Positions 7,980 to 62,671 of a DNA stretch of 64,000 nt are shown here, one piece after another (the stretch's first letter is position 1; each line of letters opens with the position of its first letter). Both the position numbers and the translations under genes were made by a program. The notes beneath the pieces are model-generated. The model was not told the DNA's origin. It saw only the letters and a list, made by a program, of their open reading frames with translations, and made no database searches. The DNA is from Deuterostichococcus epilithicus (lineage: Eukaryota > Chlorophyta > Trebouxiophyceae > Prasiolales > Stichococcaceae): assembly GCA_033439295.1 (NCBI GenBank), contig JAVTLE010000021.1:1612009-1676008 (forward strand), read 5' to 3'.

Positions 7980-8788
7980 GCTGACCCAAGTTGCGATGAT
8001 AGCTTGGACCTCCTGAGGCACTGAATCAAGTGACTTGCAACAGGTGGATTGGTCTGCTCCAAGCGTGTTGCCGGCGGCGCACGTCTCAGAATCTGCTCCG
8101 ATTGCTAGTCAATCGGTTTCGTTGTTTGTCACATGCCATGGCGTCCGGCGAACGATTTGATGTCGCTTGCACTCTGACTCCGTACACGCTGTACAGAATG
8201 TACGGGCAACATCTACGCAAAGTTTCTCTCATTTATTTTCCCCACATACTGATTGAGGCAGTAGCCTCCTCGATTTGTATGCTTACTGTCCCCGCAACTA
8301 AGGAAACGAGAGAAAGATCAAAGTGCGAGCCGGGTGGAGTGCACTCAGGCGGGGTCGGCCAAGCAGCATGCTCACAACAGAAAAGGCACCTGACTCGAGG
8401 GTCAGGCTGACAGGCAGTGTCCCAGGTGCGTTAGACGGTGGCTGCAGAGGTCAGTGTCAACAGGCGAGAGCTATAGCGAAACGTATTGGACAAGGCAGTG
8501 TGCTACGCACCTCGATCTGTGTGCCTCGCATCAATCATCACACAGCATGGTGAAAGCAATATGCTCAATGCAAACTGATTTCAGTAACACTCACACTCAC
8601 ACAACACGGGCCTAGGGAATGTGCGTCGCGTTGTGACAAACTCAGCACAATGCCACGGATCAACTTCATAAGCCAGCCAGCCGCCTTGCTGCGGTAGATC
8701 AAATCATGTTGTAAGCACTACTTGATGATGCCCAAGACGTGTCTAGTCTCAATGCGTCGCCACCCCCACACTCACGCCACTCCCAAAT
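7980..8788. other. Intergenic stretch with SET gene promoter and PAA2 3' UTR
   Basis: About 0.8 kb between the start of the SET gene and the stop codon of the copper ATPase, both on the minus strand. It is less GC-rich than the flanking exons, and no exon with conserved motifs was found on either strand. It should contain the SET gene promoter and the ATPase 3' UTR. Confidence 0.5.
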
Positions 8789-41893: not shown

Positions 41894-44800
41894 ATGCGGG
41901 GTCAGGACCTGGATGATGTTGGTGTGCTCGACAGCAAGCACGAGGACGCGCCAGCACCCAGCCTATCGGCCTCGTCAGACTCGCCGCGGCAGCGGCGCCG
42001 CATTGGCGTGTCGCAGGCGCGCGCACACAATTCGAGCTATATAATTGCCAAGACAACTTCTATAAGGATGAACTCAGCTTGTTGCGTTGAACTCGCTGCA
42101 GGATGCGCGGGTGCAGTCGGACACCGTCATGCGGAAGCTCAACAAGCACATCATGACCAAATTTTGCCTCCTCACCGTTTTGAACCACATGGACCGCGCC
42201 AATCTGGTAGGCTACTGAAACATGCCCATGCGTCATGTGCCGCATAGACTTGATGGCTTGCGAAATTACCGACAGCTTTACAGACTGTCACGGGCCCTTC
42301 CTTGCTGCCTCGCGCAGGCGTATGCGTCAGTGCAGCTAAATGAGGACCTTGGCTTCTCAGACTCTGTCTATGGCTTTGCTGCCGGCGTCTTCTTCGTGTC
42401 CTACGCCATCTTCCAGGTATTCTTGACCTCAATCGACTGCTCAAATCGCCCTCGCTGTCGCTTGTATGTTGGCGCGTGTCCTACTCCTTCAGGCCCGCAT
42501 GTTGCTGTGCCACTGCTGAAATCGAGATCCGCACCCCGCCGCACAGGTGCCCATCCAGCTGGCGGCGCAGCGTTTCGGGCTGCCCCGGGCCATCGGCGTG
42601 CTCATGGTGGGCTGGGGCGTGGTGGCCACCTGCTTTGCGGGGCTGACCAGCAACCCGTTGCACCTGTACGGGCTGCGCTTCCTGCTGGGCTTCATGGAAG
42701 CCGGTGCCTTCCCCTGGTACGGCTAAAAGAAACCCCTTTGATCAAACGCGTTTTCGAGCGTTTGCGGCATGCTGCTGCTGCTGCTGCGGCGGCGGCGGCT
42801 GCTCTGACGAATATTGGTCCTGTCCCTTGGATATGACATGAAGCCTCTTGATGTTCGGCATCGCAGCATGTGGGCATACCTCACGCTGTTTTATGCCAGC
42901 GGGCCAGACCTGGCAGTCGCCTGGAGCTTCATTGCTGCGGCGCAGCCGCTTGCACAGGTGTGTCTTGCCTGGTGTGTGTCACCATGTCCACACGGGTGGG
43001 GAGGCCGCCTGGGCATTGGCTTCGGGTCCTCCGGCAGGCCTCTGCTCGCAAGCTTTCAAGCGTATGAACCCGACCGGCAATTGAGCATGCTTCGCCTTGA
43101 AAGGCCCTCAAGCAGAAGGTCCTTGACTTTCCAGGTGGCGGGCGCGCCGATCGCTACAGCCCTGCTGCTGACAGGCGCGTGCTGAATGTGTTTTGCAGAT
43201 CACCGAGCCCACCCAAGCTGCAAATGCTGCGGGGTGCTGCCCTTTGAACATGGCATCGATCCGACCTGTCTGCTGCTCACAGACGGGCTGCTGGGGCTAC
43301 GGGGCTGGCAGTGGCTGTTCCTACTGGAAGGCATCCCCACGATTGCGCTGGGCATCTGGGTGTGGCTGACGCTGGCGCCGACGCCACTGGAGGCCGGCTT
43401 CCTGGCGCCCAGCGAGCGGGAGTGGGTGCACCAGCGCGTCAAGTCGCACAAGGTGTGCTGGTCCGCCTTCTGGTTCAGAAACCGCCTCGTTGCACCCTGA
43501 TGCGGCGAGCTCCGCATTCTGGCAGCCGTGGCCAGGTGGCGGCTGTCCCTAGGCCCTGACACGCCAGCTGAGTATCCGATCCATGTGTCCGAAGCACCAA
43601 TGGAGGCTGTCCGGGTTTCTTACAGCCTGCGTCCCGCGCCGGCGTGCAGGAGGACATGTCCAGGGACAGTGGGGAGCAGACCACCTGGGACGGCGTCAAG
43701 TGCTGGAAGGTCTGGGCGCAGGGCTTTGGCAGTGGCTGGGCAGGTGTGTGGGAGGCTGCATGGAAGGGACTGCGTGGAAGACTGCTGTTGCGGGAGCAGA
43801 GTGCTGACATGTGCGATTGGTGCGTTGCAGGCATCATGCGGTAAGGTTCCGGATATGCGCCCCTGACTTGGGTCTCCGCTGCTGACCACATTCATTGAGC
43901 TCTCGCAACGGCCGCATGGGACCATCCTTGCATGGTTTGTGGCGATTCTGCTGGTTCTGTGCGCTTTTATTTTTCCAATGGATCTGGCGCGTTGATGCAG
44001 ATATGGTGCTATGTACTGGACTCCACTCATCGTGTACGCCATACAGAATGGCAAGCACATCAGGGACAAAGACGCGCCAGATGAGGCCAGCAGAGGTGTG
44101 TGTAGTCTGTCGCCGAATCTCTGTCACCAGAGGCGCATCTCCAGGCAGCCCCGCCAATGATGTGTCGACAAGCGGTTGTGGCTTTGGGTCGACAGGTGCA
44201 CTGGCAGTGCTGCTGTCTGCCATACCGTTCAGCTGGGCAGCCATCTCGACGTACCTGAACACGGCGCATGCTAAGCGGACAGGTGCCAGCTCGCTGCAGC
44301 ACATGAATACTGACTGCTGCTCTGCGTTGCTGTACATGGCTGCCAGTAGTGAACATGCCCTCAACGAATGTCTTTGGAAAAGCTCAAGCGTCCAATGAAC
44401 CCCTCACTGCCGCAGGGGACATGTACTGGCATTTGTTGGCGCCACAGGCAGTCTGCACCGTGGGCCTGGCCATGCTGGCGTTCACGCTCGCTGAGCATCC
44501 GCTTCTGGCATTCTTTGCACTGACGCTCAGCGCCACCAGCCAGGCATCGAACCCTCTCGAATGGGGGTGAGTCTGCACATCCCATCTGGCCACCTGTTGT
44601 GCAACCTCAAGCCGCTCGTGATGATCTACTGAGACTCCCTCTCCATCATCTGCAGGTATCCAGCCACCTATCTGCATGGCGCTGCACTGTCAAGTGGGTG
44701 GGCCGTCGCCAATTGCGTTTCCAGCTATGGAGGTGAGCCACCTTGTCGCAACGTGAGGTTACCTTTGACAACACATCGTTGCTCATGCAGCATAGGACGG

Positions 44801-45041
44801 TAAGTGTGGACATTCGTCTTGCATTGAACTGCAAGCGTCTTAAAAGGCATGGCATGCCACAGGTGTCGTGGGACCCTGGCTGATTGGGGAGGCCAAGACC
44901 AAGTTTGGCGGCTTCACCATCCCCATGTTGATTTTGGCGGTGCTCAGCTTTTTGGGGGTAGGCTACTTTGCAGTCCTGCTGCGACTACTGCCCGCCAAAG
45001 ACCGGGCTGAGGAGCAGACTGAAGCTAGCGCTCTGTTGTGA
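41894..45041 (+). CDS. MFS transporter, anion:cation symporter (ACS) family
   Basis: A 12-helix secondary carrier for an organic anion or acid (the family includes pantothenate, tartrate and allantoate carriers). Fourteen exons in phase: 41894-42016, 42102-42206, 42318-42416, 42547-42716, 42867-42957, 43135-43174, 43283-43452, 43650-43743, 43831-43840, 44001-44095, 44196-44282, 44416-44566, 44656-44732 and 44863-45041, about 496 aa. The first helix region FCLLTVLNHMDRANLAYASV is the ACS signature. Others are VFFVSYAIFQVP, LRFLLGFMEAGAFP, WQWLFLLEGIPTIALG and MYWTPLIVYAI. The N-terminus is polar and cytosolic, and the C-terminus is short and acidic. Introns 1 and 6 have GC donors (after 42016 and 43174). 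Exon 9 is only 10 nt but is needed to keep frame and to complete the helix. The substrate is unknown. It lies next to biosynthetic genes, which makes an exporter role possible but unproven. Confidence 0.88.
42771..42798 (+). repeat. Trinucleotide repeat in MFS intron 4
   Basis: A run of about five GCT units passes straight into about four CGG units inside the intron between exons 4 and 5 of the MFS gene. It is a short simple repeat and could vary in length between strains. Confidence 0.8.
43831..43840 (+). other. 10-nt micro-exon of the MFS gene
   Basis: Between a TTGCAG acceptor and a GTAAGG donor lie ten bases. With one base from exon 8 and one from exon 10 they encode Gly-Ile-Met-Arg, joining SGWA to YGAMYWTP in the seventh helix region. 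Skipping it would shift the frame (10 is not a multiple of three). Confidence 0.75.
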
Positions 45042-45275: not shown

Positions 45276-47504
45276 CTAGGCTGTCCTGTTGCCAGTCCTC
45301 CCCGTGTGCCACGTCTGGTCTTTGACCGGCTCAAAAATAGCTGTAATCTCCTTCGTAACTGCCGCCTCCAACTCCGCTGCCGGGTCCGGGATGAACTCCA
45401 GGGCTTCCCGCACGACGCGCAGGTCCTCCTCGACCTGCGTATCACATCAGTTGTTGCAATCGATCGTTCAGTTGTGATGGAACATGTTCCTTACGACTCG
45501 GTGCAAGCACACATGAAGGAAGGCACGGGAGTCAATGCCACAGACGCGGCCCGCTGGCCACCTCATTCTTTCAGCCGGCTCATGGTGTTGATGCTCTTCA
45601 CTATGCCCTCGACAGACTTCACGCACCTCCGCAGGTGACGCCATGCCCATGAGGTGGACGTGCACACCCGGGGTCCTGCGCCACAGCGCGCATACACCTC
45701 GCACCCAAGTGTGCATGACACAAACTCGGCTGCTGCTGATCAAAACACTGATAACGCGTTCGCCACTGTCAAGCGCTGTGACCACCTGATGAAGTGCTTG
45801 ATGGCGATGCGAGCGAGGTCTGTGCCCTTCTCGACACACAGCTCCTTGCTCTTGATGGCAGCCGCCTTGACGTCCTCAGATGCGGGGTGCCATGACGGCG
45901 GGTCCTACAGCACCCCGTGCAGTGATCAGACAGAGTGTCCAATCTCGGATACGCCGCGGCAAATATAGCGACTCCAACGTGCCCCTGACAGCGATGAACG
46001 ACAGCACGAAAGCGACAGCACGCCATGGCGTTCAGACAACTACCTGCAGGTCCAGGGAGCAGTGTCTGATCCGCGCAGGGCAGCGGCCATTGCCCGTGGC
46101 AACCCACCTTCTGCGTGAGGAGGCCCATGGAGGAGAAGGAGGCGCTGATGACGGCGACGCGCTTCTCCTCCAGGTACGGCAGCAGCCCCGTGAGCGTGTT
46201 GTCCGCCAGGTTGTTATGGCAGTAGGAGAGGATCGCGTCCACGGTGCCCACTGGCACCCTGCGATGGCCGCCCCAGGACACACTCCTCAGCGCCTCGAAA
46301 AGGGATTTCACATGTGCATACAGCTTGAAAGCAACTCGGGACAGATGCCTGTCACACGATGCGAGCAGCAGTTTCCTACTCGAAAGGCTCCTGACCTGTC
46401 GAGGATGTAGGAATAAATGTCGAGCGGCAGGCCGGTGATGCCGATGTGGCGCACCAGGCCCTCCTTCTTCAGCTCTTGCAGCGCCGGCAGCGTCTCCATG
46501 ACGATCTGCACGCAGTGTTTCGGCTTGTACTCAGCGCATTCAACATGTGGAGATCACAGAGGCGCTGAAATGACATGCGGGCCGTGACGTAAAATGTTAC
46601 AACAGCCACTGAGTGACACGGCAGCACACACATCCCTTGTGACAGGCTGTGAGCACCCACCTGCTTCATGTCGACGGCAGACTCGATGTCGTGGCAGTGT
46701 ATGAGATCGATATACGTCAGCCCTGCGGCACGAGCACACAACCGTCACATGAGGCCCGCAGAAAATGGAGACATGTCGGCTGGTAGGCAACAACAGCAGA
46801 GGATGGCATGTGCGCCTCCATGGATATGGACATGGAGTATGATGCCGCAAGGATGAGGAAATCTGCGCACCCAGGCGCTCCAGTGACTCATGGACGCTGC
46901 GCTTCACGCGCTCGGCAGAGAAGTCCTCCGACTCGCCAGGAATGTACTTGCCCACCTTGGTGGCCACGAAGATCTGGTCGCGCGGCAGCTTCGCCAGGCC
47001 GCGTCCTAGCAGCTGCATTTAGGCGCATGAGGTGGAGGTCAATCACCTGCCACGCCCCATGCATGCGCAAATCCGTTGCGTGAAGCCATGCAAATGCTGT
47101 TTGATCAGGAAAGGAAGCAGTCAGAGCCACCAGACATGGTCGAGATGCCGTCGGCGCATGGCGGCACATTGCAGGTTTTGGCAGCGCTAGCACCTGCTCC
47201 GCTTTGCCGGCGGCATAAAACGGCGCGACGTCGAAGAAGTTAACACCGTTGTCGAAAGCCAGCTGGATCGCCTTCAGGGCTGCGGTCTCGTCGGGGGTCT
47301 GCAGCAAAACAGCAGCAAAATCATGCAAGCTGCCACACGTGCACCGTGATGCCATGCATGATCGCCTGACAAGACAGGGTGTCTCACCCCGTAAGCGTGT
47401 CCGAAAGGGCTGCATCCCATGCCGACGACGCTGACTTGGGCGCCCGTTGCCCCAAACTGCCGGTGAGGAATCTTCGGCGGGCCATCTGTGCCGACGTTGC
47501 CCAT
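45276..47504 (-). CDS. GALDH: L-galactose dehydrogenase (aldo-keto reductase family)
   Basis: This enzyme oxidises L-galactose to L-galactono-1,4-lactone with NAD+, the step before the last in plant-type vitamin C synthesis. Nine exons in phase: 47504-47388, 47298-47194, 47012-46871, 46722-46661, 46505-46396, 46258-46108, 45904-45786, 45675-45627 and 45434-45276, about 337 aa (plant enzymes are about 320). Motifs seen: VVGMGCSPFG, NGVNFFDVAPFYAAGKAE (catalytic Asp and Tyr), IFVATKVGKY (Lys), DLIHCHDIE (His), HIGITGLPLDIYSYILDR, and DAILSYCHNNLADNTLTGLLPYL. The last three mark L-galactose dehydrogenase among aldo-keto reductases. The C-terminus EPVKDQTWHTG matches the plant EPVKNLTWPSG-type end. 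At first sight a frameshift seems present near 45630. Splicing from 45627 to 45434 removes it. Confidence 0.93.
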
Positions 47505-48011: not shown

Positions 48012-49453
48012 ATGTCATCCGAGGGCAAAATCGCCCTGGTCGTCGGCGCCAGCAAGGGCGTTGGCCTTGCGGTACGCCGAGCAGCATGGCACGCTTGCGC
48101 TGGGCTTCGCCGTCAGGGCTGGGTACTTGGTGGATCTGACGCCGATTACAACACCCCGCGCAGGTTTGCAAGAAGCTGAAGGCGGAGGGGTACACGGTGG
48201 TGGGCACTGTGCGGAGCCCCAGCGACGAGCTGGAGGCTGCCGGCATAGAGTGCATCAGCGGTGAGTGAGCGTGTTCAAGCAATGCACAATACACACGTGC
48301 AGCCTCTGATTCTCTACCGTTCAAGTGGGAGGCCGTGGCAGCAGCTGAGGTAAGGAATCTTTCCACTGCTCGTGCAGGGTTTGACATCGCGAGCAGCGAT
48401 ATGTCGATGCTCGACCAGGTGGGGATAAAAGCTCGAACACATGCTGACAATTTGCGTGAGTGAGTTCGGCAGGAGGCTAGTAGATGTTTGTCTCCTGATT
48501 GAAGTAGGCAGCTGATGGTGCTCACGGCACTTGTTGCAGGCTCTGGACGATGCGCACATCGACATGCTGGTGGTCGCCGCCGGCATCCAGGAGCCAGACA
48601 CGCTCGATGACGTGACACACGACATCATCCGCCGTCAGATGGAGGTCAATGCCCTGGGCCCCGTCTTTGTCGTGCAGGCGCTCAAACAACGCCTTGCACA
48701 AGGCGCAAAGGTGAGGTCCTTGTTCGACTTTGCATCGTTCCATGCTGCAGTCATGGAGCACTGCAACTCCAGTTCTGTGCATTCGTGCAAGTGAGTGCAA
48801 CGTTACCGATTTGCCTGCCCATGCAGGTGGCCTTGATAGCCAGCAAAATGGGCTCCATCGCAAATGTCGGCCTCACGGGTGGCGATCTGGTGAGTTTCGC
48901 TTGAAATTCGCCTGGCTGTGCGCCAACTTCTTCCAAAAATGCCATGGGACTCAAGGTGATTGATCAGGGCCATTTTACTAGAGCCCTGTTTTACTAGAGC
49001 CCTGTGTGCTGTGCAGCTGGGCTACCGCATGTCGAAGGCAGCGCTCAACATTGCCGGGGTGACGATAGCAAAGGACCTCGAAAAGCAACGGGTGTGGTTA
49101 CCCTCGACTGCAGTCGGCCTCATGCATCAGCTGCGTATGTCACTGCATTGCGCCTGGTCGGTTCTAATCGCCTCATTGACCATACTTGCCTCAGCCCATT
49201 CAAACCTTCAGGCTGAAAATGTGCGCTCAATCCACAGGTGGCTGTGGCGCTGGTGCACCCGGGCGTCGTCTTCACGGACATGCTGCGAACCCTGCGTGAG
49301 GGGCGCGGCGTGGCGCCCGACAAGATCCGCGACAACTCGATCACCCCAGAAGCATCCGCTGATGGCATCTGGAGCGTCATGGAGGGCATGTCCCTCGAAA
49401 ACACTGGGCAGTATTGGGACGCGGCAAACCCTGGGCAGCAGCTGCAATGGTGA
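48012..49453 (+). CDS. Short-chain dehydrogenase/reductase (CsgA/C-factor-like)
   Basis: A classical Rossmann-fold NAD(P)-dependent oxidoreductase. Seven exons in phase: 48012-48071, 48164-48260, 48378-48418, 48540-48710, 48827-48889, 49017-49091 and 49238-49453, about 240 aa, the usual size. The cofactor motif is VVGASKGVGLA (the GxxxGxG pattern) near the N-terminus. The DxxVxxAG equivalent is MLVVAAGI. The catalytic Ser lies in LIASKMGS, and Tyr and Lys lie in GYRMSK. After the active site comes VHPGVVFTDM, the PG motif. Arg follows the GTVRSP strand, which favours NADPH. Its substrate cannot be predicted. It lies upstream of the MysC-like ligase on the same strand, 600 bases apart, so a role in the same pathway is possible. 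Confidence 0.88.
48973..49004 (+). repeat. Perfect 2 x 16-bp tandem duplication in SDR intron 5
   Basis: The unit TTTTACTAGAGCCCTG is present twice back to back (48973-48988 and 48989-49004), just before the acceptor at 49015-49016. It looks like a recent small duplication. Confidence 0.95.
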
Positions 49454-50053: not shown

Positions 50054-53000
50054 ATGGGGGCGTCCGAAGGTAGTGCAGCCGACACATTTGCAGCCGCAGA
50101 TGCCAAGCTGATCAAGAGCATCATCACGCTGGTGCCTGCCGCCAATCAGCATGTGAGTCAGTATGACGCCCTGCACTGCCATCACTTTCCAGCTTCGCCA
50201 CATTCTCTGCGCACTGTCGTCCCTTCCATGTGCTGCCAAGGCAATCTGCTGCAAGGCCGACAGCACAGACAGGCTTCTGCGAAACGAGTTCTGTCATTGT
50301 CACCAGGACGTCATCGAGGCTTTGAAGCAGGACTACCCGCAGCGCTACAAGGCAGTGGTGGGCGTTGCGCCATGCGAGGCATGGTCCGGCGCCACAAAGC
50401 TGGCCTCGCGCACCAAGGCCGTCGCCCTCTTGTGGCTCATCTACTTCGTCGCGCTGCCGCTGTCGCTGTGCGTGCTGTGCGTGCGCGCTGCGTTCACGAG
50501 GTTCTTTGGACGGCCGGCGCCAACGAACGGCGCTGGTCACAATGGGCAACAGACCAACGGACACAGATCCAGCCCACGTGGCACAGCGCTCGTCAGCGGT
50601 GAGCGCTGCTGCGCGACATGGCCTATGATCCGGACCACAGCACCATGCTTCAGGAGGCACCTGTGCCTGACCTGGTTTTGAAAGCTGTAGCGACAGTTTC
50701 CTGAAGACATCATGTCATTCTGACGCTTGTCTGTGTCCGATGCGCAGGCGGCAACAAGACCAAGGCTCTGCATGTGTGCAGACACCTGCACAACGCCGGC
50801 TGGCGCGTCGTGCTCGTCGACGGCAGCAAGTCAGCTCCCTGAGACCCCCTGGTCTGCTGCATAGCGACTTCACCAATCCGCGCCTGATACTGCCAGCTGC
50901 TGCATGCGCCTGTGCAATGCCCACCGCTATCTGGTTCTTTTCTGCAGCAGCACGGCTTCGTGGCGGCACACTGATGCCGTGGCATCCGTCTGCTCCCCGC
51001 AGGAACTGGTCGTGCTGCGCCCGCTTCTCCAACAGCGTCGCCAAGTTCTACGCGGTGCCCATCCCCAACGAGCGCCCGCTCGAGTACCTCAAGGTATGTT
51101 CGACATCTCGTCTTGTTGAACACGACGACCCATCGGACTGGCTCTCATCATCTCTGGCTTTGAATCCGCGCGTACCGTGTGTCGCGGCCCTGCCTGGACC
51201 TGCCCCAAACCAGCACACAGGACCTCTTGCAGTTCTGTGAGCGCACGATCTCGCAGTAGCGGCCACCCCTGCAGGCGATGGCGCGGATCGGGGCGCGGGA
51301 GAACGTGTCGCTGTTCGTGCCGGTGTCCATTGCGCAGTACAGCATCTATGAGGCGCTGGCCGCGGAGCTGCTGCCGCCCGGCTGCCACAACTGCACCCTG
51401 ACCGCACCAGATGTGCGCTCTTGTGCCCGTCTTGCTTGTGCCTGCTGTCCTAGGCGCATAGTTGCGACACCAGCAGAATGCCAATGCTGTACATCGCAGT
51501 CATCTTGTCGGATGGCTGGCTGCCGTTCTGAATTGTTGAAGCACGCGTGCCGGAAGGTGATCCAGTCCTGTCACCTTCACCTTCTCTGCCTGCAGGTGGC
51601 GGTCCTGAACGACAAGATCAAGTTCCAAAGGTTCTGCGACAAACACGGGCTGACGACGCCGCATGTGTTCCCCATCACCTGCAAGGACGAGCTGCGAAAG
51701 CTCAACGACAGGTGCGGTGGCTTTGAGCAGATGTCCTGTCGCTTGACCATTGGCTTCGAAGGCAACGCTGGCAATTCGAGCAGAGGTGCTCTCCTGCTGC
51801 ATGGCACCCAACTGCCGACGGGTGTGTGACCGCAGACCCTAGGCACCGCAGACCCTAGGAGCTTTTGCTATTTTAATGCCGTCAAACTCCAGGCGGCGCA
51901 AGTCAAACCGCTCCTGTATGCTGCAATGCCCAGGCCGGAGGTCTTTAAGGGGAAGCCGTACCTCCTGAAAAGCGTCCAGTACGCCGCGCTGTCGCGAGCA
52001 GACATGTTCAAGCTGCCCTGCAACCCAGAGGTGGGCAGCGCCGCCTGCTGCGAAAGCGACTCCGGCTTCTCCCAGCAGCAAAGACCTGCATGCATCCTCT
52101 GTGATTACCGGCACCTGCCCCGTGCTTGCCCCAGCGCCGCGCCGCCAGCTGCCTCGCCTTTTTACCTGCTGACTGCACGCCCTGCGCATCCGTCGCATCT
52201 GTCAGCAGTGAACTGCCCATTCCAGGCCCGCTTGATCCCTCCACCGAACCCTCTTGCTTCTCCGCGTCCGCAGAAGCTTGAGGCCTACATAGCAGACCTG
52301 GACATCTCGGACACCTCGTCGTGGCTGCTGCAGCACTTCATCAACGGCCCGGAGTATGCGTGCTACTCCATCGTGCACGACGGCAACATTGTGGCGCACT
52401 GCGACAACGAGGCCGAGCTCTCCTGCCTCAATTATGCGCACGTCGGCCTCCCCGAGGTGTGCGCCTTTTCCGTATGCTCGCGGCCTGTCCCATGCGGCCT
52501 GTCCCGTCCCTTAAGCGGCGCTGGTGCTGAGAGAACCTGCGATATGGACAGAGTCAGGTACTGGGATTCAGTTATCAAACAGCTGCCTCAGCAGGCTGCG
52601 CATACCCGGATGCACATCCAATCACCCCTGCTCATCAGGTTTTGTGTGTGTGCTCGCAGATCCTGAAGTGGGTGCAGAAGTGCTGCACGGCGCACCCCAT
52701 GTCAGGCCAGCTGTGCTTCGACTTTATGCTGGACCGCGCCGAAGGCGTCCTCTACTGCATCGAGTGTGAGTCCTTTCTGCCTGCTCCCCCTTCTGTACAG
52801 CCATGCATCCTGCAGTCTACGGCGTCCTCTACCGCACCGTGACCGAGCAGCGCTTGCTCACCGTACTCGAGCTGCTGCTTGTCCCGCTGCTGCTAGCGGC
52901 CACTGCCTTAAATTGCTGCTTCTACCGCCACCCCATCCCCTCACTGGAAACTCCTTCTCGCCAGCGCCCAGGGTGCCATGCATGGCGACACAGAAGGTGC

Positions 53001-53983
53001 AGCTCCGCAATCGCACAGTGAGTGCCCGCCGCCATGCAAAAAAGTACATGCAAAAGGCATGCTGTCGAACCGCTGAGCTGTACCCTTGTTCATCAACTCT
53101 CGCCCATTTGCCGCAGGCAACCCACGGACCAGCACCAACATCCTGGCGTTCCAGGGCGACCAGCGCCTGCCAGTGGCCTTGTTCAACCCGCAGGCAGTGG
53201 TGGACAGTTGCGCCGCGCCGCTGGAGCCGCTGCCGACCAGCCGGCCCACCTATTGGCTCTTCAACGAGCTGGGCAGCTTCCTGTTCGGAGACCTGCCTGC
53301 GGTGCGCGTCCAGCAGCATGTGCAGATGTAGGCAAAGGACGGTGCATGAGTGCACTTACCTGCAGCCCCGACGAAGCGGTGGGCGCGCATCTCTGTCCAA
53401 GCTGCCACTGTGCCGACGCGGCTCTGTATCACACCCTGGGCCAGTCGATGCAGCCTTCTGAAGCCTCGGGAGGACAGGGGGTGCACACTAAATCCCTGTT
53501 TCAGAGCTTCTGCCCCTCGGCCGGCAGGGAGTTGCTGTGACACCAGCTCTGCTGACTGACCCATGCCTGACGCGCCACAGGTGCGTGGCCCATTGCAGCT
53601 CATCAGCGGCCTGAAGACACGCCTGCACACGCTGCTCAGCGGCACAGACGCAGTCGCAGACGTGGGCGACTACGGACCCTTCTTCGCTCTGCACTTCCTG
53701 CAGATTCCCGTGCAGCTCGCTCGTATCATCGCCAGCGGCAAGCCGTGGATCAAGATCGACCTCTGCAGGCGTGCCCCAACTCCTTTTCACACAATGCTTG
53801 ACTTCCAGTCGTTTTCGATTGCATCGGTGCACCACGCCGGTGCTCCTGTGTGCCTCGGCCCCCAAGCAGGTAGCATTCATGTGAACCTATGTGGGCGCGC
53901 TCTCGCTGTGCGACTTTCAGATCTGACGCATCGCTGTGTGGCTTCTCTGCAGCGGCAAGGTCGTTGAGCTGGGTGGCGACTGA
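50054..53983 (+). CDS. mysC: MysC-like ATP-grasp ligase (mycosporine biosynthesis)
   Basis: In cyanobacteria MysC uses ATP to couple an amino acid (glycine) to 4-deoxygadusol, giving mycosporine-glycine. Twelve exons in phase: 50054-50152, 50307-50598, 50748-50829, 51003-51093, 51275-51412, 51596-51711, 51934-52030, 52274-52456, 52660-52765, 53117-53301, 53581-53768 and 53953-53983, about 535 aa. A hydrophobic helix at residues 71-92 (ALLWLIYFVALPLSLCVLCV) matches the membrane segment found ahead of the ATP-grasp fold in bacterial MysC. Next come the fold start GGNKTKALHVCRHL and KPYLLKSVQY (ATP-binding Lys). LLQHFINGPEYACYS and IECNPRTST (metal-binding Glu/Asn) follow. The C-terminus PWIKIDLCSGKVVELGGD keeps the characteristic VELGGD end of MysC. 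The intron after 53768 has a GC donor. The N-terminus before the helix is longer than in bacteria. The amino acid substrate may differ from glycine. Confidence 0.9.
51829..51859 (+). repeat. 15-bp direct repeat in mysC intron 6
   Basis: ACCGCAGACCCTAGG occurs at 51829-51843 and again at 51845-51859, one base apart, inside the intron between exons 6 and 7. Confidence 0.95.
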
Positions 53984-54506
53984 GATGAGATGGTAGCTGG
54001 GCACCAATCCTGAAAAGTTGACTGGTCAACATCGACGATGAGTATCAATCGTGCCGTCGTCCATGTGCGGGACCTAGACAAGCTTAGTTGTTGACATGCT
54101 ATTTTGCAGTGTAAAAGATAGGCTGAGCACCAGACAAACAGGTTCTGAGCAAACGCATTTGCAGATTGCAGCAAGATGGTTGTATGTGGCTGCCAGGATC
54201 CTCAATATGCACGAATATCACCAGCGCAAGCGCAGTATTCCTTTCAACAACTTTTGTACTGCTGCAGCAGTATGTGTTTGACACCTTTTCGAACTGTCGA
54301 AGGATCCACAATGAAGTCATGTCATGTCCAATAGCCTGTCTAACACCCCAGCCTGGGCAAAGCTCGTTTATGCACGGGTAGACTGCTGACAATGATCAGC
54401 GGCGGCAATAATGATTGCGCGAAAATCCATCTCAGACCTCCGATCTGCCTCTGCCAAACTATCTACGACAACCTTGACTATTGTCGCCTGTTGCGTGTCG
54501 ATATCC
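53984..54506. other. Convergent intergenic region, mysC to the MysB-SDR gene
   Basis: 0.52 kb between two 3' ends facing each other. A TGTAA at 54110-54114, 127 bases past the mysC stop, is the likely poly(A) signal for the plus-strand gene. Nothing coding was recognised. Confidence 0.5.
54110..54114 (+). terminator. TGTAA poly(A) signal of mysC
   Basis: The chlorophyte polyadenylation motif TGTAA lies 127 bases after the mysC stop codon on the coding strand. Confidence 0.45.
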
Positions 54507-57500
54507 TCACCACAAGCTTTGGCCACCCTCCAGGACCAGGTTGTGGCCCACCTGTATACAAGAACACCGTCATGAATGACAATCATTCAGGGACACAGGT
54601 ACCGTCAGCCGCAAATTCTACATGGCATCGCAGCCATCCCAGAGATGTCAACTGACACCGGCACGCATTGATCAAATGCCACGTCGACGCACTCACCATG
54701 TAATCCGATGCCGGAGACGCCATGAACACAATGGCCGTCTGCAGGTCAGTGACCTCTGCCAGGCTGTGTGTGGGGATCTGGTGGTCAACCCACTCGGACA
54801 CCAACGGCTGCAAGTCCTTTGACTTCTGCACAAACCCATAGGAGAGCAGTTTTGGAAACGGTTATCAATGAGGGAGGGCATGAAACGGCAAACATGCGCC
54901 AAGCATGTGCAAAGTGCAGGGTTTGTAGGCATGTTGAGGTGCAGAGCGCATGATCAAGCACCGTGCCTGGATGAGCTCGGTGTTCACGATACCAGGCGAG
55001 ATGCAGTTGACGCGCACGCCGCGGTCAGCCCACTCGCACCCCAACGTCTGCGTCATCTTGACGACTGCTGACTTTGAGGCGTTGTATGCTATCTGCGGAA
55101 CGACGACCGCCTTACTCAGCAGCTCCGAATGCAAAAGAAACACGGCCCCATCGCATGGTTGAAATGTTGGCACAGACATCGTGAGGTGAGAAGCTGCCTG
55201 CACATGGCGCACCTGCTTCTGCGGGTGCGGCACCAGCAGGCTGGCCATGCTGGCTGTGTTGATGATCTTCCCCCGGCCTGCAGCAGCAATGTTAGGACTT
55301 TCAGAACATGCTGTGCTGCCCTGGCGAGCCTGCAGCGACGACGATGTTTAGAGGTGATGCAGCCACAGTGATTACAGCACGCACCCTGCTGCAGCATGTG
55401 GCGGCCCTCCGCCTGGCAGCACAGGAACACAGCACGCGTGTTCAGGTTGAAGGTCAGGTCCCAGTCCTCTTCGGAGCACTCCTCTGCGGCATGGTTGCGG
55501 TTCACGCCTGCATTGTTAACGGCGATGTCCAGGCCACCCAGCTGCTCCACAACCTGCGCCACCATGCTGTGGGCACCAGGGGACGTGACCTTTAGGGCGC
55601 CCGCTCAATTCACCACTGGGAAGACACGACATTCGAGGACGAGCTCACCCCACCATCTGCTGCACATGCTACGGGCACATATGACGGGCTGGGTCAGCGC
55701 TTCTGATGCAGGGTCCCATTGCTGGTTCGCTGTCACATTGAAAGACGATCTATCAGGAGGCGGCACATGAAGTTGCAGGCCAGAGGCCCAGGGCACCCTG
55801 TCCGTACGGCACCTTGGTTGCAGGCGAGCAGAGGGTGTGGATGTTTGTCATATTGGATGTTTGTCATTTGAAAAGGAAACACGGCTGGACAGCGCACCTG
55901 TTGCAGGCGTCTGCCTTGGTGATGTCTGCTGTCACCGCGATGGAGCGGATGCCCTTGGCGGCCAGTTCATCACGGACTGCCTCTGCCTTGGGGCCGTTGA
56001 CGTCGACCACCGCAACTGCCGCGCCCGCTTCGCCCAGGGCATGCGCAAATGCGCGCCCAATGCCCTGGCCGGCGCCTGTGGGTTTGATGTGGGTGCACGG
56101 TCAGCTGCAGTGCATGAACCGTGCCAGCCTCCTAACTTTGCCCCTGCGCTCCAAAGGTGCTCAAGCCAGGCACAGGCGGTGGCAGAGCCGCTGCAGAGAA
56201 GCCAGCACCTGTGATCAGGGCTGTCTGGCCATTCAGCTTGAAGCGCTGCAGGATGTTGTTTTGCGCCAGTCCTGTGTTGACGTCGTCTCCATCTGCCACC
56301 TGCCTGCACGCCACCAGGACCCTGGTCTCTGCTAGTGCATCAGCGTTTGGGCCTTCTTGGCGGACAGCCTGCCGCATCATGACAAGCTGAATATGTGGAC
56401 AGCATCTCGCAGCATAGAGAGAGTACCGACTCAATATGTACCGACTAAGTGTACCGACTCAAAAGGATCATCCTGGCAAAGGGAAGGTCAGAGCCGCACT
56501 TGCGCATGATGATGCTGACGCCGTCGCGGAAGGGCGTGCCAATGACCTCCACTCTGTCGTCATTTCTGATGGCCTCATTGAACTCACGGATGGCCGTGCC
56601 CAGCTCGTCATCCTTGTCAGTATATGGCCGGCCCTGGGGAGGTGGGGCCACACCTGTCAGCCTCTCCTCGCCAGGCTGCAAACTTCGCTTGGCAAAACTT
56701 CGATTATCAAAAACATGTGTGCGCAAGGCAGGTGCGTCTGGATGCCGCACTTGCAGCACAGCAGGAGCAGTACCTTCATCAGGGTGTTGTCCGCCACGAT
56801 GGCGCCGCCCGGCACGATAAGGTTGTTGTCCATCAGCTGCATCAGAATGAACAAGATGCAGCCTCAGCGTCGGCGTGAAACTCGCTTCACGCTTCCTAGC
56901 GGTGACGTACATCACTGCACGATCGCAGGGAGACAGCAGATACAGTAGGAAAAATGCCTGGTTGTAATAGCCGAGGTAGCCGCCCTTGTCGGCGTCAAGG
57001 AACGCCAGGTCGAAGCGCACGCCCTTCTTTGCTAGCGTCTTGATGCCCTCGTCTGCTGAGCCCACCACCACTGTCACCTGAGTTGAGACAAACATGTCTT
57101 GTCTGAGCACCATCTTGACAATCCAACCGGTATGCCACAACTTACTGCTGCATCGCTGGCACATTTTGTGAGCCGCAAAGGTAGCTCGAGCATTGGCAGC
57201 TCTGAAATATGGAGTCAAACAGGCCAAGCACGTGCTATGGAGTTCCCACAAGGCAAACTGCACCTTCTTGTCGACGCCCGCCTTCTTGAAGTAGGGCTCC
57301 GAGAAATCCTTCATGTACTGCTCGATCTCGAGCGCATACACCTGGTGCTCACACCAATCGAGAAGTGAGCCTCGCAGCCCTCTGAGCCGATGTCATACAG
57401 TTTCCGCAGATCGCAGAGAGCAGAGTCACAATCCTGCCTGTGTATATGGCGCTGACGCATGTTGTTGCAACGTCAAAATCTCAGGCCGTGCACTGGAGAC

Positions 57501-58262
57501 CACCCGTGCAGTCAGACAGGCAGGGCATGTCTTGCCTGGCCATCGTCGGGAATACACTGCGCCACCGCCAGCGTGGTGGTGCCAGTGAACATGCCAACCT
57601 CCAGCACCGTCTTGGCGCCTGTCAGCCGGCAGAGGGTGGCGATGAAACGGCCCTCGAGCGCGCCCGCACAGCACTCGCTCTTCTGGAGGAACAGGGTCTT
57701 GCCCTGCAATTGCACTGTAACAGTCAGCTGGACCGTACAGCAGCTAGGCTGCTGCACGTAGAGATGCAAAGGTGTCGGACAACAGGTCGATGGCAGCGCG
57801 CAGAAATCAGGAGCACGTGGCGCAGTAGATTGCAGGAGCACCTGCTCGTGGGCCTCCCGCCAACCATGCGACAGCGATGCGCTGATCAGGTCCTGGCAGA
57901 CCTGCGGCCGTTCGGGAACCACCCACCTCAGGGACCTCCGTGCCAGCCGCACCACAGGCTGCTGATGTCAGCTGCGTCCGTCAAGAAGAGAACTGCCAAC
58001 CACAACCAAAGGGTTTGATTGCTTCAGACCCAGCGCTGCTGCCGCTCACCTGTGACGGCGGCGTCGAGATCTGATCGAGGTATGGGTCAAGGCCTGCCAC
58101 GAGGGCGTGCGCCTGCTCCACCAGCTGCTTGACGGCCGCGGGGTCATGCTGCTGCAACGCCTTGCCCAAAAGCGCCGTCAGCACCTCCACTGGCGTGTCA
58201 GGCTGACCGGCAGCATTGACATCGCCATTGGCATGCGGCCCGAAGCCGTTGGCGGCCACCAT
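54507..58262 (-). CDS. Fused MysB-like O-methyltransferase and short-chain dehydrogenase (MT-Ox type)
   Basis: One gene of 13 exons, about 531 aa. Methyltransferase exons: 58262-58050, 57703-57536, 57341-57264, 57077-56958, 56836-56774 and 56633-56500. Dehydrogenase exons: 56303-56209, 56075-55898, 55566-55385, 55277-55213, 55092-54967, 54825-54697 and 54551-54507. The first half matches cyanobacterial Mys[14 protein letters not shown] near the start, the SAM site [12 protein letters not shown] (104-115), DADK (181-184), VADNTLMK and [11 protein letters not shown]. The second half is a classical [12 protein letters not shown] (289-297), NNAG, and YNASK with catalytic Tyr435 and Lys439, ending [10 protein letters not shown]. 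The phase of the donor after 56500 and the acceptor before 56303 agree, giving MRK joined to QVADGDD. Read as two genes, the MysB stop (56445) and the next ATG (56434) would be only 10 bases apart, which leaves no room for a nuclear promoter and 3' UTR. Three introns have GC donors (after 57536, 56958, 54967). Confidence 0.82.
56423..56459. repeat. Three copies of GTACCGACT in the fusion intron
   Basis: GTACCGACT is found at 56423-56431, 56438-56446 and 56451-56459 on the plus strand, about 13-15 bases apart. They sit within the 196-nt intron that joins the methyltransferase to the dehydrogenase, near its donor. The read-through stop of the methyltransferase (56445-56447) falls in the middle copy. 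Confidence 0.9.
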
Positions 58263-59501
58263 GAAAAGCAGTGCTTGGAGTCTCGTGGTCGGCGCCCGAT
58301 TGAGCTGCAGGTGACATGTTCGCAGTTCGAAGTTCGAGCAAACATCACTTCGATTTAATCCCAGGATATTGATGTGTACGAAATTGCTACCAGTTGAAAA
58401 TGACACTGCAGCTCAAAGACTTGCTCGTTGAACAGTGAAGGAGTGCGCACGGCACTTGCGATGTCATTTTCTGCTTCACATTCATGACTGAGGAGGCTGT
58501 CCGAGGCTGTCAACACCAAATGACTCACCTGCACCTGCCCACTTGAAGTACAACGGCACACCTGCGGACGGGAGGATCTGACCGACTCAAGGACCCCGAC
58601 CCCAGAGCCTCGCCAAGATGCCTACTTTCAATGAAGCTTGACAAAGTTGCGATCCAGACTCGGGCGATCCGAAAAGGCTGGGAATGGCGTGGCCGTTTCC
58701 TCGAGCGGCACGTGTGTGCAAGCTCCCGCTCAGAGCAGATTCCCCTCCATCTCTCTTTTTCCCCTGACCCCGCCGAGAAGTTGCGACTTGTGCTTGCTGG
58801 AGATTCGTTTCGCTGTCAGCAGCGAGGTCAGTCCGTTTCACCCCACTCTCCAGCATAAGGCTCACATTGGATTGAAGCGCAACCAGGTGTGTGTCCAATC
58901 GGTCAGCCACCGGTCGGAACTGTGTCTACCTGTTTCGATAGATCGTCCACGTCATCTTGGTCACGCAGCGACTTCTCCCACTTACAGTCGCACAAGCGGT
59001 TGCGGATCGGTGTATCTGGCGCGATGGCGGCTCGTCACGCTCTGGGGGTACGAATCCATGCCGGGACGACCAGGGATGTGGCGCCACTGGCCCAGAGGCC
59101 GCATGGCGCTGCGATGCCTGCAAGCAGGTGCGGCATTAATTTCGCAATGTTGGCAGTTGCGATCACACGCGTCTTTGCCTCCATTGACTGCTCCACAATC
59201 GTGCAGCAGCCGCCGCGCCGGCCTCGCGCGTGTCGCCTGCGGGCGCGCTCGACGTGGCCACCTTTTTTGACCGGGGGCATGCCCTCGGTGCAACAGGCCG
59301 CCCCAACACTGCTCGCAGCAGGGTGTTGCATGGTTATTCAGTTCCAGACGGTCCTGTCCTGCAGCTCGCCGCGATCCTGCACACGTCCACGAGGCTAGCC
59401 CTGTGATCGACGACGTTGGCTGTACACACACATCGATACGTGTGTCCCGTTGCAGGGCGCCTGGTCCGGCTGGACACCACGGTATCGGCAGCTCCGCAAT
59501 C
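58263..59501. promoter_or_regulatory. Divergent promoter region of the MysB-SDR and cyclase genes
   Basis: The two core pathway genes start at 58262 (minus) and 59502 (plus), 1.24 kb apart, the widest divergent gap in the window. It should hold both promoters and 5' UTRs. A possible short 5' exon of the cyclase (ATG at about 59023 followed by a GGGGTACG donor) was considered, but its phase does not fit. The region has no recognisable protein motif on either strand. Confidence 0.55.
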
Positions 59502-62500
59502 ATGAAGCAGGCGCCGCCCAGCGGCGTGGAGGCGCCTGCCGTGGCGGCCCCGGAACGTCAGCATGCGCAGCACGCTGAAAAATCCTACTCGTCCACATCT
59601 TTGGTCGTGGAGCCGCCTGAGACTGGCAGAATGAACTCACCGGGCCTTGGCGGCCTCACAGCCGGCGGCACCAGCGGCCTCAGCACGGTAAGCTGTGAGT
59701 TCTGGGGACATTAATCACAGCTTGTCATGCTTGACGTCCCTCGCTGACCTTTTCGCTTTCTTATCAGTCTGCCAGTAGGTACTTTGAAATTTTGCAGTCG
59801 CGCGGTTTCTTAACATCGGCCGCCAGTCCTCCTGCATCGAATCGATTTACATCTGTTTACCCTGCCAACGTACTTTATGTGCTGGCGCTTAACAGGGGAG
59901 CTTCCAGGTGGTGGCGGCGCAGCCCGTCAGCTACACCATCCAGGAGGTGGTGGGCCTGCTGGATCTTGACAATGAGGTATGTGACTGAGAGTAGCAGACA
60001 GACACAGTGATTTTGCTGCTGTCGCGTCCACGACTCCACCTTTCTGGTTGTGCGGGCTGTGGTTCCTTTAACATGGCCTTTCCTCCTTGACATACTGTGC
60101 TGTCCTCAGGCCCTGCTGCGCGGCGTCGTTCCCGGCTCGTTTCCCAGCCAGCTGGCAGCGTCGCCAACCCAGGAGATCGGCCAGCGGCGGTTCGTCATCA
60201 TGGACGACAACGTGTACCGGCTGTATGGCGAGCGTGTCGAGCAGGTCAGCAATGCAAGAGAAGTGCAGTTTGCATGCCTTCCGTCTCTGACTAAGTGTAC
60301 GCATCCACTCACCTCCACATCACTTTTTATTGTCATATAGCACTCTGACCGATGGCTGTCTTTGACTGGTGATGCAGTACTTTACGCATCACGGCTTCGA
60401 GTACGAGATCCTGCCGCTGCCAACCAACGAGGCCAACAAGAGCTTCGAGCTAGTGTTCGAGGTGGCAGATGCGCTGGAGAAGTTCGGCATCAACAGGTCT
60501 GCAATTTGTGGGCGGTATCGTTATGTTTGGGAATTTTGGGTATCTGTAAAGGATCTCCTGCTGTACATTTCGAATGAGCATCATCACAGCCTGACATGCG
60601 GGCCATTACCGGAGCTGATGACGTCCTGAATGTTCAGGCGGAAGGAGCCAATCATTGCCATTGGCGGCGGTGTGTGCCTAGACGTTGCCGGTTTGGCAGC
60701 AAACCTGTTCAGGCGAAACACCCCGCTCATCAAGGTGGGTGGGCATCGCATGCGCCGCAGTGCCCTGCTGGCATTTGCCATGTCTAGTGTCGTGTCTTGA
60801 GGATCCTGGAGAGGCTTTAAGCGTGTGCAAAACTGGATTGTGCAAATCCCGGAGGGTTTGAGCACGACCTGAAGCAATTGTGCTGATTCAAAGCCCTGTG
60901 TCTGAGCAGGTGCCGACCACACTGATGGCTGCCGTGGATGCGTCAGTGGGCATCAAGACGGCAGTCAACTTCCATGAGAAGAAGAACAAGCTGGGCACAT
61001 ACTGCCCGCCGCTGGCAGTCTTCCTTGACAGGTATCTGCCGCAGTCTGCGCTTGCGCTAACCAAGCAGAAGCCGTGTCCTGGTTTTCCACAATGGATACA
61101 GCCTACTTGTACTCGCTGTCCAGGAAGCCTGTCGCCAAGCGGTGATATCGCCAATACCTCGCTCTGCAGGTCGTTCCTGCGGTCGCTGGACCAACGCAAC
61201 ATCAGCAATGGAGCGGCAGAGATGCTGAAGATGGCGTGCATCAAGGACGAAGAGCTGTTCAACATCCTGGAGCAGCACGCCGAAGATATCATGATCAGCA
61301 AATTCCAGGTACGCTGATACTGTATGGCTCACCGGGCCCGGCGGGAGTAGCTGCTGTGCCTTGCCGACATCGCTTGCATCCTGCTTTCAAAGGCCAGTCG
61401 TTCAGAGTCTACTTTCACTCAGAGGCAGGACTGTAGGACAAAGCTGTCGATTGTGCCAATATGTCTCCAGCGAAATCAAGAGAATTTGTCAAACGCTGCG
61501 TTCAATTCTTGCGTAGGGCCCAATTGCGGGCATGGCGATGCGGCGGTCGATCCAGGGCATGCTGGAGGAGCTGGAGTACAACCTGTGGGAGCACATTTTG
61601 TGCCGCCTGGTCGACTACGGTCACACTTTCTCGCCAGAGGTGCAGTTTGGCTGCTGCATTTAATGCTTCATTCGAACTGGAGATGGGGCACACGTCCCAA
61701 TGTGCATGGCGCTACGCTCATGTGACAATGTGCAGCACTATGTGGCGGTCGATCGGCGTGTTTTGAGATTGAGATTCAAATGTGAATGCGCCTGCTTCAT
61801 GCAGATCGAGATGGCGGCACTCGCATCAGGCGAAGAGCTTCTGCATGGTGAGGCCGTCAACATCGACATGGCGCTCACCACACAGGTGCGCCTGCAAAAT
61901 TGGAAGGAGATTGCTCCGCTGGGTTTGTCCACACGCCACCCACCCTCTATTGCACCTCAGGCTGGGTTGAGCCTGAGCCTGATGTCATCACACACTGCAG
62001 CATTTGGATGGGTGACGATGTGTTCAAGGGCAGGGTAATGATACTCATCATGACACCTTCTGTCTGGCGCTGCAGATCTCCTGCAACCGGGGCCTGATCA
62101 GCCCTACGCAGCGCGACCGCGTGTTCAAAGTGATGAATGCACTGCAGCTGCCAATGCAGCACGGCGTCTGCAACACGAAGCTGTACATGAAGGTGGAGCA
62201 CCTCTTTGTTGAAAGGGTCTTGCAGGAAAGCACATCACCCTGCAACATGCATGTCGAACATGCGCCAGAAGAGTGCAGCGCAGTGGTGGGGCCACACCAT
62301 GCATGTCGTCGTGCCAGAGCATCATGCATGATGTAGTGGGCGGGCTGAAATGTCAATCTGAGACCAACTGAGTGGTGGTTTCACACGCTGCAGGCCCTGC
62401 GGGACACGACGAAGGCCAGAGACGGCCTGCAGCGCACGCCTCTCATGGCCGGCATCGGCGCTGCCGTGTTTGTGAACGACCTACAGGTGGGGAGGCTGCA

Positions 62501-62671
62501 TCATCAGTCTAATGAAAAGCAACTGCTGGCCTTTGCACACTGCCGTTGAAGACAGATCCAGCTTCACTTTCGCTTGCCTGTCCTCAAATTGTTCACTACC
62601 TTTCTTGATCCTGCCTGTCGTCGGCCCAGGAGCACGAGGTGGCTGCCGCAGCCACTGCGATGGGCTGCTGA
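59502..62671 (+). CDS. mysA: Sugar-phosphate cyclase, MysA/DDGS or EEVS type
   Basis: A dehydroquinate-synthase-fold, NAD- and zinc-dependent cyclase. Members acting on sedoheptulose 7-phosphate give desmethyl-4-deoxygadusol (DDGS, MysA) or 2-epi-5-epi-valiolone (EEVS). Twelve exons in phase: 59502-59687, 59896-59976, 60110-60244, 60378-60496, 60638-60734, 60910-61031, 61170-61308, 61517-61639, 61805-61885, 62076-62192, 62394-62486 and 62630-62671, about 444 aa. MysA-like segments are IMDDNVYRLYGERVEQYF, the NAD site IAIGGGVCLDVAG (GGG at 183-185), PTTLMAAVDASVGIKTAVN, NGAAEMLKMA, LVDYGHTFSP (metal His) and LLHGEAVNIDMAL (metal His). GIKTAVN and the loop before YGHTFSP separate it from true dehydroquinate synthase. 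The first 60 residues are not conserved and may be a targeting or linker segment. By eye DDGS and EEVS cannot be separated. The neighbouring MysB-SDR fusion is compatible with either. Confidence 0.9.

Follow-up and report, generated by a model that had tools for sequence, protein, structure and literature searches.

Which mycosporine-like amino acid (MAA), if any, is made by the clustered genes at bases 50054-62671 of the 64,000-base window analysed here, a stretch (bases 1,612,009-1,676,008) of a 3.58-Mb contig in the 46.8-Mb, 21-contig genome of the green alga Deuterostichococcus epilithicus? An initial annotation, made from the sequence alone, had read the three genes as the cyanobacterial enzyme trio for mycosporine-glycine, in a mycosporine/gadusol-type cluster of a green-algal nuclear genome. 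The cluster itself is borne out, and gadusol is the better half of that description. Of the trio, the first enzyme was misassigned and the second only partly described, although the relation of the third to MysC holds. We consider it probable that the window carries a nuclear cluster for a gadusol-core MAA, built by a route that runs from a cyclase through a fused methyltransferase-short-chain dehydrogenase (MT-SDR) and an ATP-grasp ligase to a further methyltransferase (MT) encoded by a fourth gene. Rather than mycosporine-glycine, the likely product is a gadusol-core MAA that is probably N-methylated and would absorb near 324 nm.

Gene models were spliced manually at GT-AG junctions, in rare cases at GC-AG ones, and translated. 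A MysC-type ATP-grasp ligase (50054-53983, plus strand, 12 exons, 535 amino acids), the fused MT-SDR (54507-58262, minus strand, 14 exons, 551 amino acids) and a sedoheptulose-7-phosphate cyclase resembling 2-epi-5-epi-valiolone synthase (EEVS) (59502-62671, plus strand, 12 exons, 444 amino acids) proved to be adjacent, complete and intron-rich once spliced, as had been claimed, and the motifs quoted in the initial annotation were found in the spliced proteins. The gaps inside this block, ~0.5 kb and ~1.2 kb, hold no unrelated gene, again as annotated; the SDR exons starting at 54507 are the second half of the MT gene. The larger gap (58263-59501, 1.24 kb by the model coordinates) separates the divergent MT-SDR and cyclase genes and is possibly a shared promoter region. 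The extent given to the cluster covered these three genes and missed the fourth, a PF00891 methyltransferase at 38736-41407 (minus strand, 11 exons, 385 amino acids; tblastn and spliced model), with 8.6 kb between it and the ATP-grasp gene. The interval 38736-62671 therefore contains each of the four gene types known from the green-algal cluster described below. Bacterial contamination, already dismissed in the initial annotation, is ruled out by the introns in all the genes and by the 3.58-Mb contig. Whole-genome searches, which scored the best candidates only and did not include the SDR half among the queries, returned no second copy: the listed matches all fall in the window genes for the ATP-grasp protein (11 of 11), the MT domain (7 of 7) and the fourth gene (10 of 10). 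Four such genes in 24 kb of a 46.8-Mb genome would, in our view, not be due to chance.

In the proposed route, the EEVS-like cyclase would cyclise sedoheptulose 7-phosphate, and the resulting C7 cyclitol is probably 2-epi-5-epi-valiolone (EEV). With NAD+ and S-adenosylmethionine (SAM), the fused MT-SDR would oxidise and O-methylate this cyclitol to gadusol. An amino acid would then be coupled to the gadusol ring at the expense of ATP by the ATP-grasp ligase, probably anchored in the membrane, to yield an oxo-carbonyl MAA. To this the PF00891 methyltransferase, which lacks a conserved His, would add an extra methyl group; the amino-acid nitrogen is its most likely site, in line with the N-methylserine of klebsormidin B and with algasporine-glycine. 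No match to PF07478, the MysD-type profile, appeared in an exon-by-exon search of the genome (control 14/14), which fits a single amino-acid substituent. We infer each of these reactions, together with their order, the choice of N- over O-methylation, the amino acid and the co-expression of the genes.

Compounds matching such a product have been reported. Klebsormidins A and B are described as carrying N-methylserine on a gadusol core and absorbing at 324 nm, and gadusol was obtained from Klebsormidium as a degradation product (PMC7118736). Prasiolin is presented as a green-algal gadusol-core MAA, also at 324 nm (PMC4698291), and algasporine-glycine is said to carry an N-methyl group (PMC13312787). 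In Apatococcus ammoniophilus, a 275-Da compound of formula C11H17NO7 was initially interpreted as similar to mycosporine-serine (PMC12325221); by our arithmetic, its formula also fits N-methylglycine on gadusol. Our literature searches, covering titles and the starts of abstracts, turned up no enzyme for MAA N-methylation.

The gene set also has a precedent, as clustering in green algae was published in 2020. Foflonker and Blaby-Haas reported a four-gene cluster in Klebsormidium nitens, Chromochloris zofingiensis and Coccomyxa subellipsoidea, for which they proposed a gadusol-core MAA, possibly klebsormidin A, the functions then still awaiting tests (PMC7826186). The same four proteins and the same gadusol-core hypothesis apply here; the window differs in that the fourth gene stands 8.6 kb off with three other genes between. 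Their fourth protein was labelled a putative O-methyltransferase, and the cluster section of that paper mentions neither the Ser-for-His change in the fourth enzyme nor the missing cyclase His described below. The literature records we searched yielded no later experimental test of the four-gene cluster.

The fourth gene came to light in a tblastn search of the window, extended by 20 kb, in which every open reading frame (ORF) of at least 100 amino acids from 46 reference loci (L005-L050; 43 cyanobacterial and three actinobacterial) served as a query. In addition to the three genes already described, exons at 38.7-41.2 kb on the minus strand matched the ORF lying 3' of MysC in Microcoleus (L045) and Symplocastrum (L042) with an E value of 3.5e-17, and the spliced protein matched PF00891 (E 3.3e-16) and the dimerisation family PF08100 (E 4.8e-8). 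In an alignment of five solved PF00891 enzymes with the L042 protein, all five have His at a site where both the L042 protein and the window enzyme (Ser286) have Ser; we take this His to be the catalytic base of PF00891 O-methyltransferases. Searching with the L042 protein among 291 genomes drawn from the larger cyanobacterial class, we found some match in 73 and an intact close ortholog in 12 (63-80% identity), the next full-length matches falling to ~35% identity. All 12 intact orthologs, one of them in the genome of seed locus L045, and eight of the many distant homologs were read; a thirteenth ortholog, in genome G265, lies in pieces with stop codons and was left unread, and the copies in G002 (L039) are broken as well. 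Ser occupies the site in all 12 close orthologs and His in all eight distant homologs. MysC and a MysB-type or PF01596 MT adjoin 10 of the 12 orthologs, nine of them with a cyclase as well, and none of the eight distant homologs. In the tree, the window protein falls in the Ser group (100/99). Without a base to take the proton from a hydroxyl, an enzyme with Ser in place of His would fit methyl transfer to nitrogen, as in the klebsormidins, and we regard the fourth enzyme as a candidate N-methyltransferase.

The alternative that survives best accepts the pathway as proposed, except that the fourth gene would encode an O-methyltransferase, an inactive or regulatory relative, or an enzyme of some other pathway. 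The Pfam family bears the name O-methyltransferase, as does the putative label given in PMC7826186, and two of the 12 intact orthologs have no MysA, B or C gene within ~8 kb. Such a role accords poorly with a Ser that is kept in the window enzyme and every close ortholog where distant homologs and solved enzymes have His, and with the N-methyl groups reported for the klebsormidins and algasporine-glycine. We therefore hold it possible but rather doubtful.

As a separate observation, a gene of ~370 amino acids with a similar N-terminal sequence lies 3' of the Ser-type MT in four loci (L120 9240-10367, L121 7047-8165, L118 6914-8026 and L042 13607-14734). A ~370-amino-acid gene persists after the Ser-type MT in two loci without nearby mys genes, and for the copy in L120 the profile matches are to glycosyl hydrolase family 43/32.

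The cyclase carries the Pfam domains DHQ_synthase and DHQS_C. Its solved relatives are ranked with the EEVS ValA first (4p53; E 3.4e-100, 338.9 bits), followed by the desmethyl-4-deoxygadusol synthase (DDGS) of Anabaena (5tpr; E 1.4e-67, 231.5 bits) and by true 3-dehydroquinate synthases (DHQS) at E 4e-38 or weaker. Sequence relatives were taken as the best 120 of 2131 hits and sorted into 32 algal rows (many assigned by identity and tree position), five fungal rows and the remaining 83, called bacterial-type; the counts below refer to these listed rows. A near-identical relative (P0001, 98%) is a 442-amino-acid ORF on a 1798-nt JGI contig, and the nearest named relatives are from Coccomyxa viridis (69% identity) and Elliptochloris bilobata (68%), which by itself would make a trebouxiophyte green alga the most likely source. 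Comparison of 21 EEVS sequences (20 of the 83 rows plus ValA) with 19 DDGS sequences (18 of 46 plus the solved one) gave 26 columns conserved within each set and differing between the two; the window cyclase has the EEVS letter in 19, the DDGS letter in one and neither in six.

Two of these 26 columns deserve most attention, which we take to be the two published EEVS/DDGS fingerprint sites (Kean 2014) and which presumably correspond to D281 and H360 of ValA. At the first, D326 in the window cyclase, Asp is found in 120 of 120 homologs and Ala in 46 of 46 DDGS. At the second, His is found in 83 of 83 bacterial-type rows and Thr in 45 of 46 DDGS, with one gap. None of the 37 algal and fungal rows has His there; the 32 algal rows have Ala (19), Gln (6), Thr (5), Leu (1) and Gly (1), and the five fungal rows Gly (2), Cys (2) and Ala (1). 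The window cyclase combines the EEVS-type Asp with Ala408, and the algal cyclase thus lacks one site that we believe to be among the published EEVS fingerprint sites. With only the Asp of the Asp-His pair present, we file it as EEVS-like and not as EEVS, and the missing His means that EEV as the cyclase product is not assured.

The MysA-type identity given in the initial annotation did not hold up. A DDGS assignment is rejected on the score (231.5 versus 338.9 bits), on the single DDGS-like column in 26, and on the pair Asp and Ala where DDGS have Ala and Thr. A DHQS assignment is likewise rejected. GHTFGH is the DHQS motif and was also seen in the DHQS chains compared here; the window cyclase reads GHTFSP and scores 216.1 bits against the aroB cut-off of 305. 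The genome search with DHQ_synthase returned two loci, namely the window cyclase and, ~95 kb off, a canonical DHQS carrying GHTFGH.

Could the algal and fungal cyclases instead form a sedoheptulose-7-phosphate cyclase class of their own, making for instance another valiolone epimer, so that the final MAA would differ in ring stereochemistry? The replacement of His by Ala, Gln, Thr, Gly, Cys or Leu in 37 of 37 rows would accord with this. A motif before the catalytic domain, GLxGL...G..GL..GxF, points the same way; encoded in the N-terminal exon (59502-59687) of the window cyclase from ~residue 48, it is present in 22 of 32 algal and five of five fungal rows, and in none of the 83 bacterial-type rows or the 46 DDGS. 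So do both trees: a quick tree unites algal and fungal cyclases (support 99), and a careful tree splits them from bacterial EEVS and DDGS (100/100). The DHQS outgroup of the careful tree lands among the algae, probably a long-branch effect, and leaves the root unsure, because of which the nesting of algal cyclases within EEVS is not settled. Nevertheless, the MT-SDR partner shares the architecture of the EEV-using fish enzyme, and gadusol was reported from Klebsormidium as a degradation product (PMC7118736). We regard a different cyclase product as unlikely, and retain EEV as the probable one.

The MT-SDR consists of an MT domain (~residues 1-279) and an SDR domain (~280-551), and PF01596 and PF00106/PF13561 were found in one protein by Pfam on an earlier 576-amino-acid gene model. 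The SDR half shows NNAG, Ser and YNASK, which we take to be elements of the short-chain dehydrogenase family. Two acceptor sites of the gene model were set from the homolog P0121, a 551-amino-acid intron-free ORF that continues across the MT/SDR junction; it is probably a transcript, because its 1957-nt JGI contig is too short for introns. GC-AG introns number four of 24 in the MT-SDR and ATP-grasp genes (3 of 13 and 1 of 11, respectively), the three in the MT-SDR gene agreeing with the spliced homolog P0121 and the one in the ATP-grasp gene being its last intron. Treating MT and SDR as two genes (unspliced, an MT stop at ~56445 and an SDR ATG ~65 bases on) was rejected because P0121 crosses the junction. 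Both Pfam domains occur in 22 of 28 MT-domain homologs, or 20 of 28 under a stricter rule of length plus SDR motif.

The initial annotation had called this gene a MysB-type methyltransferase. Its MT domain is indeed related to cyanobacterial MysB (best E 1.1e-56), but MysB is the stand-alone PF01596-type MT of MAA loci, and the fusion to an SDR had been overlooked; a quick tree places the domain within the MT-SDR group (support 92, not starred). An MT domain N-terminal to an NAD-dependent oxidoreductase in one protein is, as far as architecture goes, the arrangement of the methyltransferase-oxidoreductase MT-Ox. PMC7826186 reports, for other green algae, a protein close to vertebrate MT-Ox. 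Osborn et al. (2015) reported adjacent EEVS and MT-Ox genes in C. subellipsoidea, and recombinant zebrafish MT-Ox converting EEV, SAM and NAD+ to gadusol (PMC4426668). The alga thus resembles the vertebrate gadusol pathway of that report in having an EEVS-like cyclase gene that adjoins a fused methyltransferase-oxidoreductase, and differs from it by the additional ATP-grasp ligase and fourth methyltransferase.

These features also bear on the reading from which the question arose, a cyanobacterial-type route in which DDGS (MysA), MysB and MysC make mycosporine-glycine on a 4-deoxygadusol core absorbing at ~310 nm. Its MT domain and ATP-grasp counterparts in the window are clear relatives of MysB and MysC, and deoxygadusol MAAs have been annotated in one Klebsormidium species (PMC13312787). 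An SDR fused to the MT would, however, be superfluous in a DDGS route; the cyclase is EEVS-like by score, in 19 of 26 columns and in its Asp at a site that is Ala in 46 of 46 DDGS; and the structurally elucidated green-algal MAAs in the reports cited have a gadusol core. A mycosporine-glycine cluster is consequently very unlikely, and the gadusol-core pathway remains our preferred reading.

The ligase is strongly related to MysC, as the initial annotation had it. Compared with the ORFs of the reference loci by phmmer, the ATP-grasp protein found 49 matching ORFs in 46 loci, adjoining MysA and MysB, with a best E value of 1.9e-83. Homology extends across the ATP-grasp core, and the 18 columns invariant in 31 relatives are all kept, including K285, D387, E401, N403 and R405, whose catalytic roles we assume from the ATP-grasp fold. 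A hydrophobic N-terminal helix, already noticed in the initial annotation, begins at ~residue 71 and is present too in the cyanobacterial MysC compared. In the tree, the algal ligases and nine metagenomic proteins form a group (100/100) that neighbours MysC of cyanobacteria and actinobacteria, two fungal proteins serving as the outgroup. By sequence, no solved relative was significant (best E 0.44), and no Pfam or NCBIfam match exceeded the cut-off. Judged by its sequence, the protein is a genuine MysC relative. That the genes encode an unrelated DHQS, caffeoyl-CoA-type MT and carbamoyl-phosphate-synthase-like ATP-grasp enzyme brought together by accident, as several automatic database names ('3-dehydroquinate synthase') and the lack of a family match for the ligase might suggest, is scarcely credible given the non-DHQS features of the cyclase listed above, the place of the ligase among MysC relatives, and the co-location of the genes across several algae (PMC7826186, and the contigs below).

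Linkage of these genes is indicated in other algae too, a check that the initial annotation had suggested for trebouxiophytes. Judged from equal contig sizes, the cyclase (g6478), MT-SDR (g6480) and ATP-grasp (g6471) genes of C. viridis share a contig of 2,242,362 bases; cyclase and MT-SDR share one in Symbiochloris, Trebouxia C0006 and Elliptochloris; and cyclase and ATP-grasp share one in K. nitens. The fungus Saitoella coloradoensis has an algal-type cyclase (P0067) and an MT-SDR fusion (P0139) on contigs both of 308,388 bases, probably the same contig.

A bacterial counterpart was found in the cyanobacterial locus L124 (genome G039; 2576-9117), in which an EEVS-type cyclase is followed by a PF01596 MT, MysC and a Ser-type MT. 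The cyclase has both Asp and His at the two sites and is 51% identical to ValA. As far as these sequences tell, EEVS-type cyclase and MysC co-occur in at least one bacterium, without an SDR fusion. The window is alike in bringing together an EEVS-like cyclase, a PF01596 MT, MysC and a Ser-type methyltransferase; L124 differs in lacking the SDR fusion, in a cyclase that retains His and in having its four genes on one strand. A gene for a xylose-isomerase-like TIM-barrel protein lies upstream of the L124 cluster. With the cyanobacterial mysA-mysB-mysC arrangement the window shares the MysC-type ligase, a MysB-related MT domain and a relative of the fourth MT, which stands beside MysC in 10 of the 12 genomes with an intact close ortholog; it departs from it in an EEVS-like instead of a DDGS cyclase, an SDR-fused MT, introns and genes on both strands. 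Three other cyanobacterial loci (L126 12297-14090, L128 11727-13577 and L129 11390-13282) have MysB and MysC next to a cyclase of ~600 amino acids that is extended at its N-terminus, carries Ala/Lys at the two EEVS/DDGS sites and shares only 35-36% identity with DDGS; on these sequence features, such cyclases appear to be a divergent type in MAA clusters.

Several observations weigh against the gadusol-core, N-methylating pathway. The cyclase lacks the bacterial-EEVS His, and six of the 28 MT homologs, including that of Ulva, list no SDR domain; the fusion is not universal. Nor is clustering, since the Elliptochloris ATP-grasp gene lies on a contig that differs in length from that of its cyclase and MT-SDR genes. 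The fourth protein sits on a long tree branch, its cyanobacterial relatives are only ~34-38% identical, two of the 12 intact orthologs stand apart from mys genes, and transporter, aldo/keto reductase and SDR genes separate the fourth gene from the other three. Among compounds, prasiolin is reported without an N-methyl group (PMC4698291), and mass spectrometry of Klebsormidium subtile led to the annotation of canonical deoxygadusol MAAs as well, shinorine among them (PMC13312787). A UV transcriptome of Jaagichlorella credits shikimate-pathway genes and methyltransferases, and a term search of the main text of that report found no mention of EEVS, ATP-grasp or gadusol (PMC12786583).

If both unusual active sites are taken at face value, it is attractive to speculate that green algae do not merely mix the fish and cyanobacterial routes: the algal cyclase, with those of chytrid type and of Saitoella, would be a distinct His-free class, and the fourth enzyme would be a PF00891 N-methyltransferase without the His base that installs the N-methyl group of klebsormidin and algasporine-glycine. 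This double proposal is tentative, and we think it somewhat less than probable.

Three genes occupy the interval between the fourth gene and the ATP-grasp gene. A major facilitator superfamily (MFS) transporter gene lies on the plus strand (41895-45041, limits approximate by eye; PF07690 E 4.1e-17, from a Pfam search of joined conserved exon pieces totalling 174 amino acids). An aldo/keto reductase on the minus strand (45276-47504, nine exons, 337 amino acids; PF00248 E 1.8e-50), which we take to resemble plant L-galactose dehydrogenase, is probably unrelated to the pathway. A separate short-chain dehydrogenase of 240 amino acids, its exons joined by eye, is on the plus strand (48012-49453; PF00106 E 5e-24). 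The reductase and this SDR were set aside as cluster members, their position being the sole evidence. Some ORFs from the flanks of cyanobacterial MAA clusters also gave exon-like matches, at 9352-12487 (minus strand, E 1e-15) and, in the region joined from the window and its extension, at 67.7 kb (L051 3.7 kb, minus strand, E 1.4e-9); both are probably unrelated housekeeping genes. Elsewhere in the genome, contig C11 (1152910-1245941, plus strand) has ~17 condensation domains (PF00668) of the non-ribosomal peptide synthetase type at ~5-6 kb spacing on one strand over 93 kb, to which all 46 PF00668 matches listed for the genome belong; the array may represent a giant synthetase of this type encoded by a green alga.

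New here are the Ser-for-His replacement in the fourth enzyme and its orthologs, the missing His of the cyclase, and a bacterial cluster in which an EEVS-type cyclase and MysC stand with the same methyltransferase. Concrete genes at one small locus of a contiguous genome are here tied to a class of green-algal sunscreens already known, which absorb at 324 nm, have a gadusol core and are in some cases N-methylated. Two points become testable in this way, namely which enzyme adds the N-methyl group and whether a His-less algal cyclase yields EEV, and because both the cyclase and the last methyltransferase have unusual active-site residues, the identity of the final product merits testing. The L124 bacterium is relevant to the origin of the algal route, which algae may have put together themselves or may in part have inherited.

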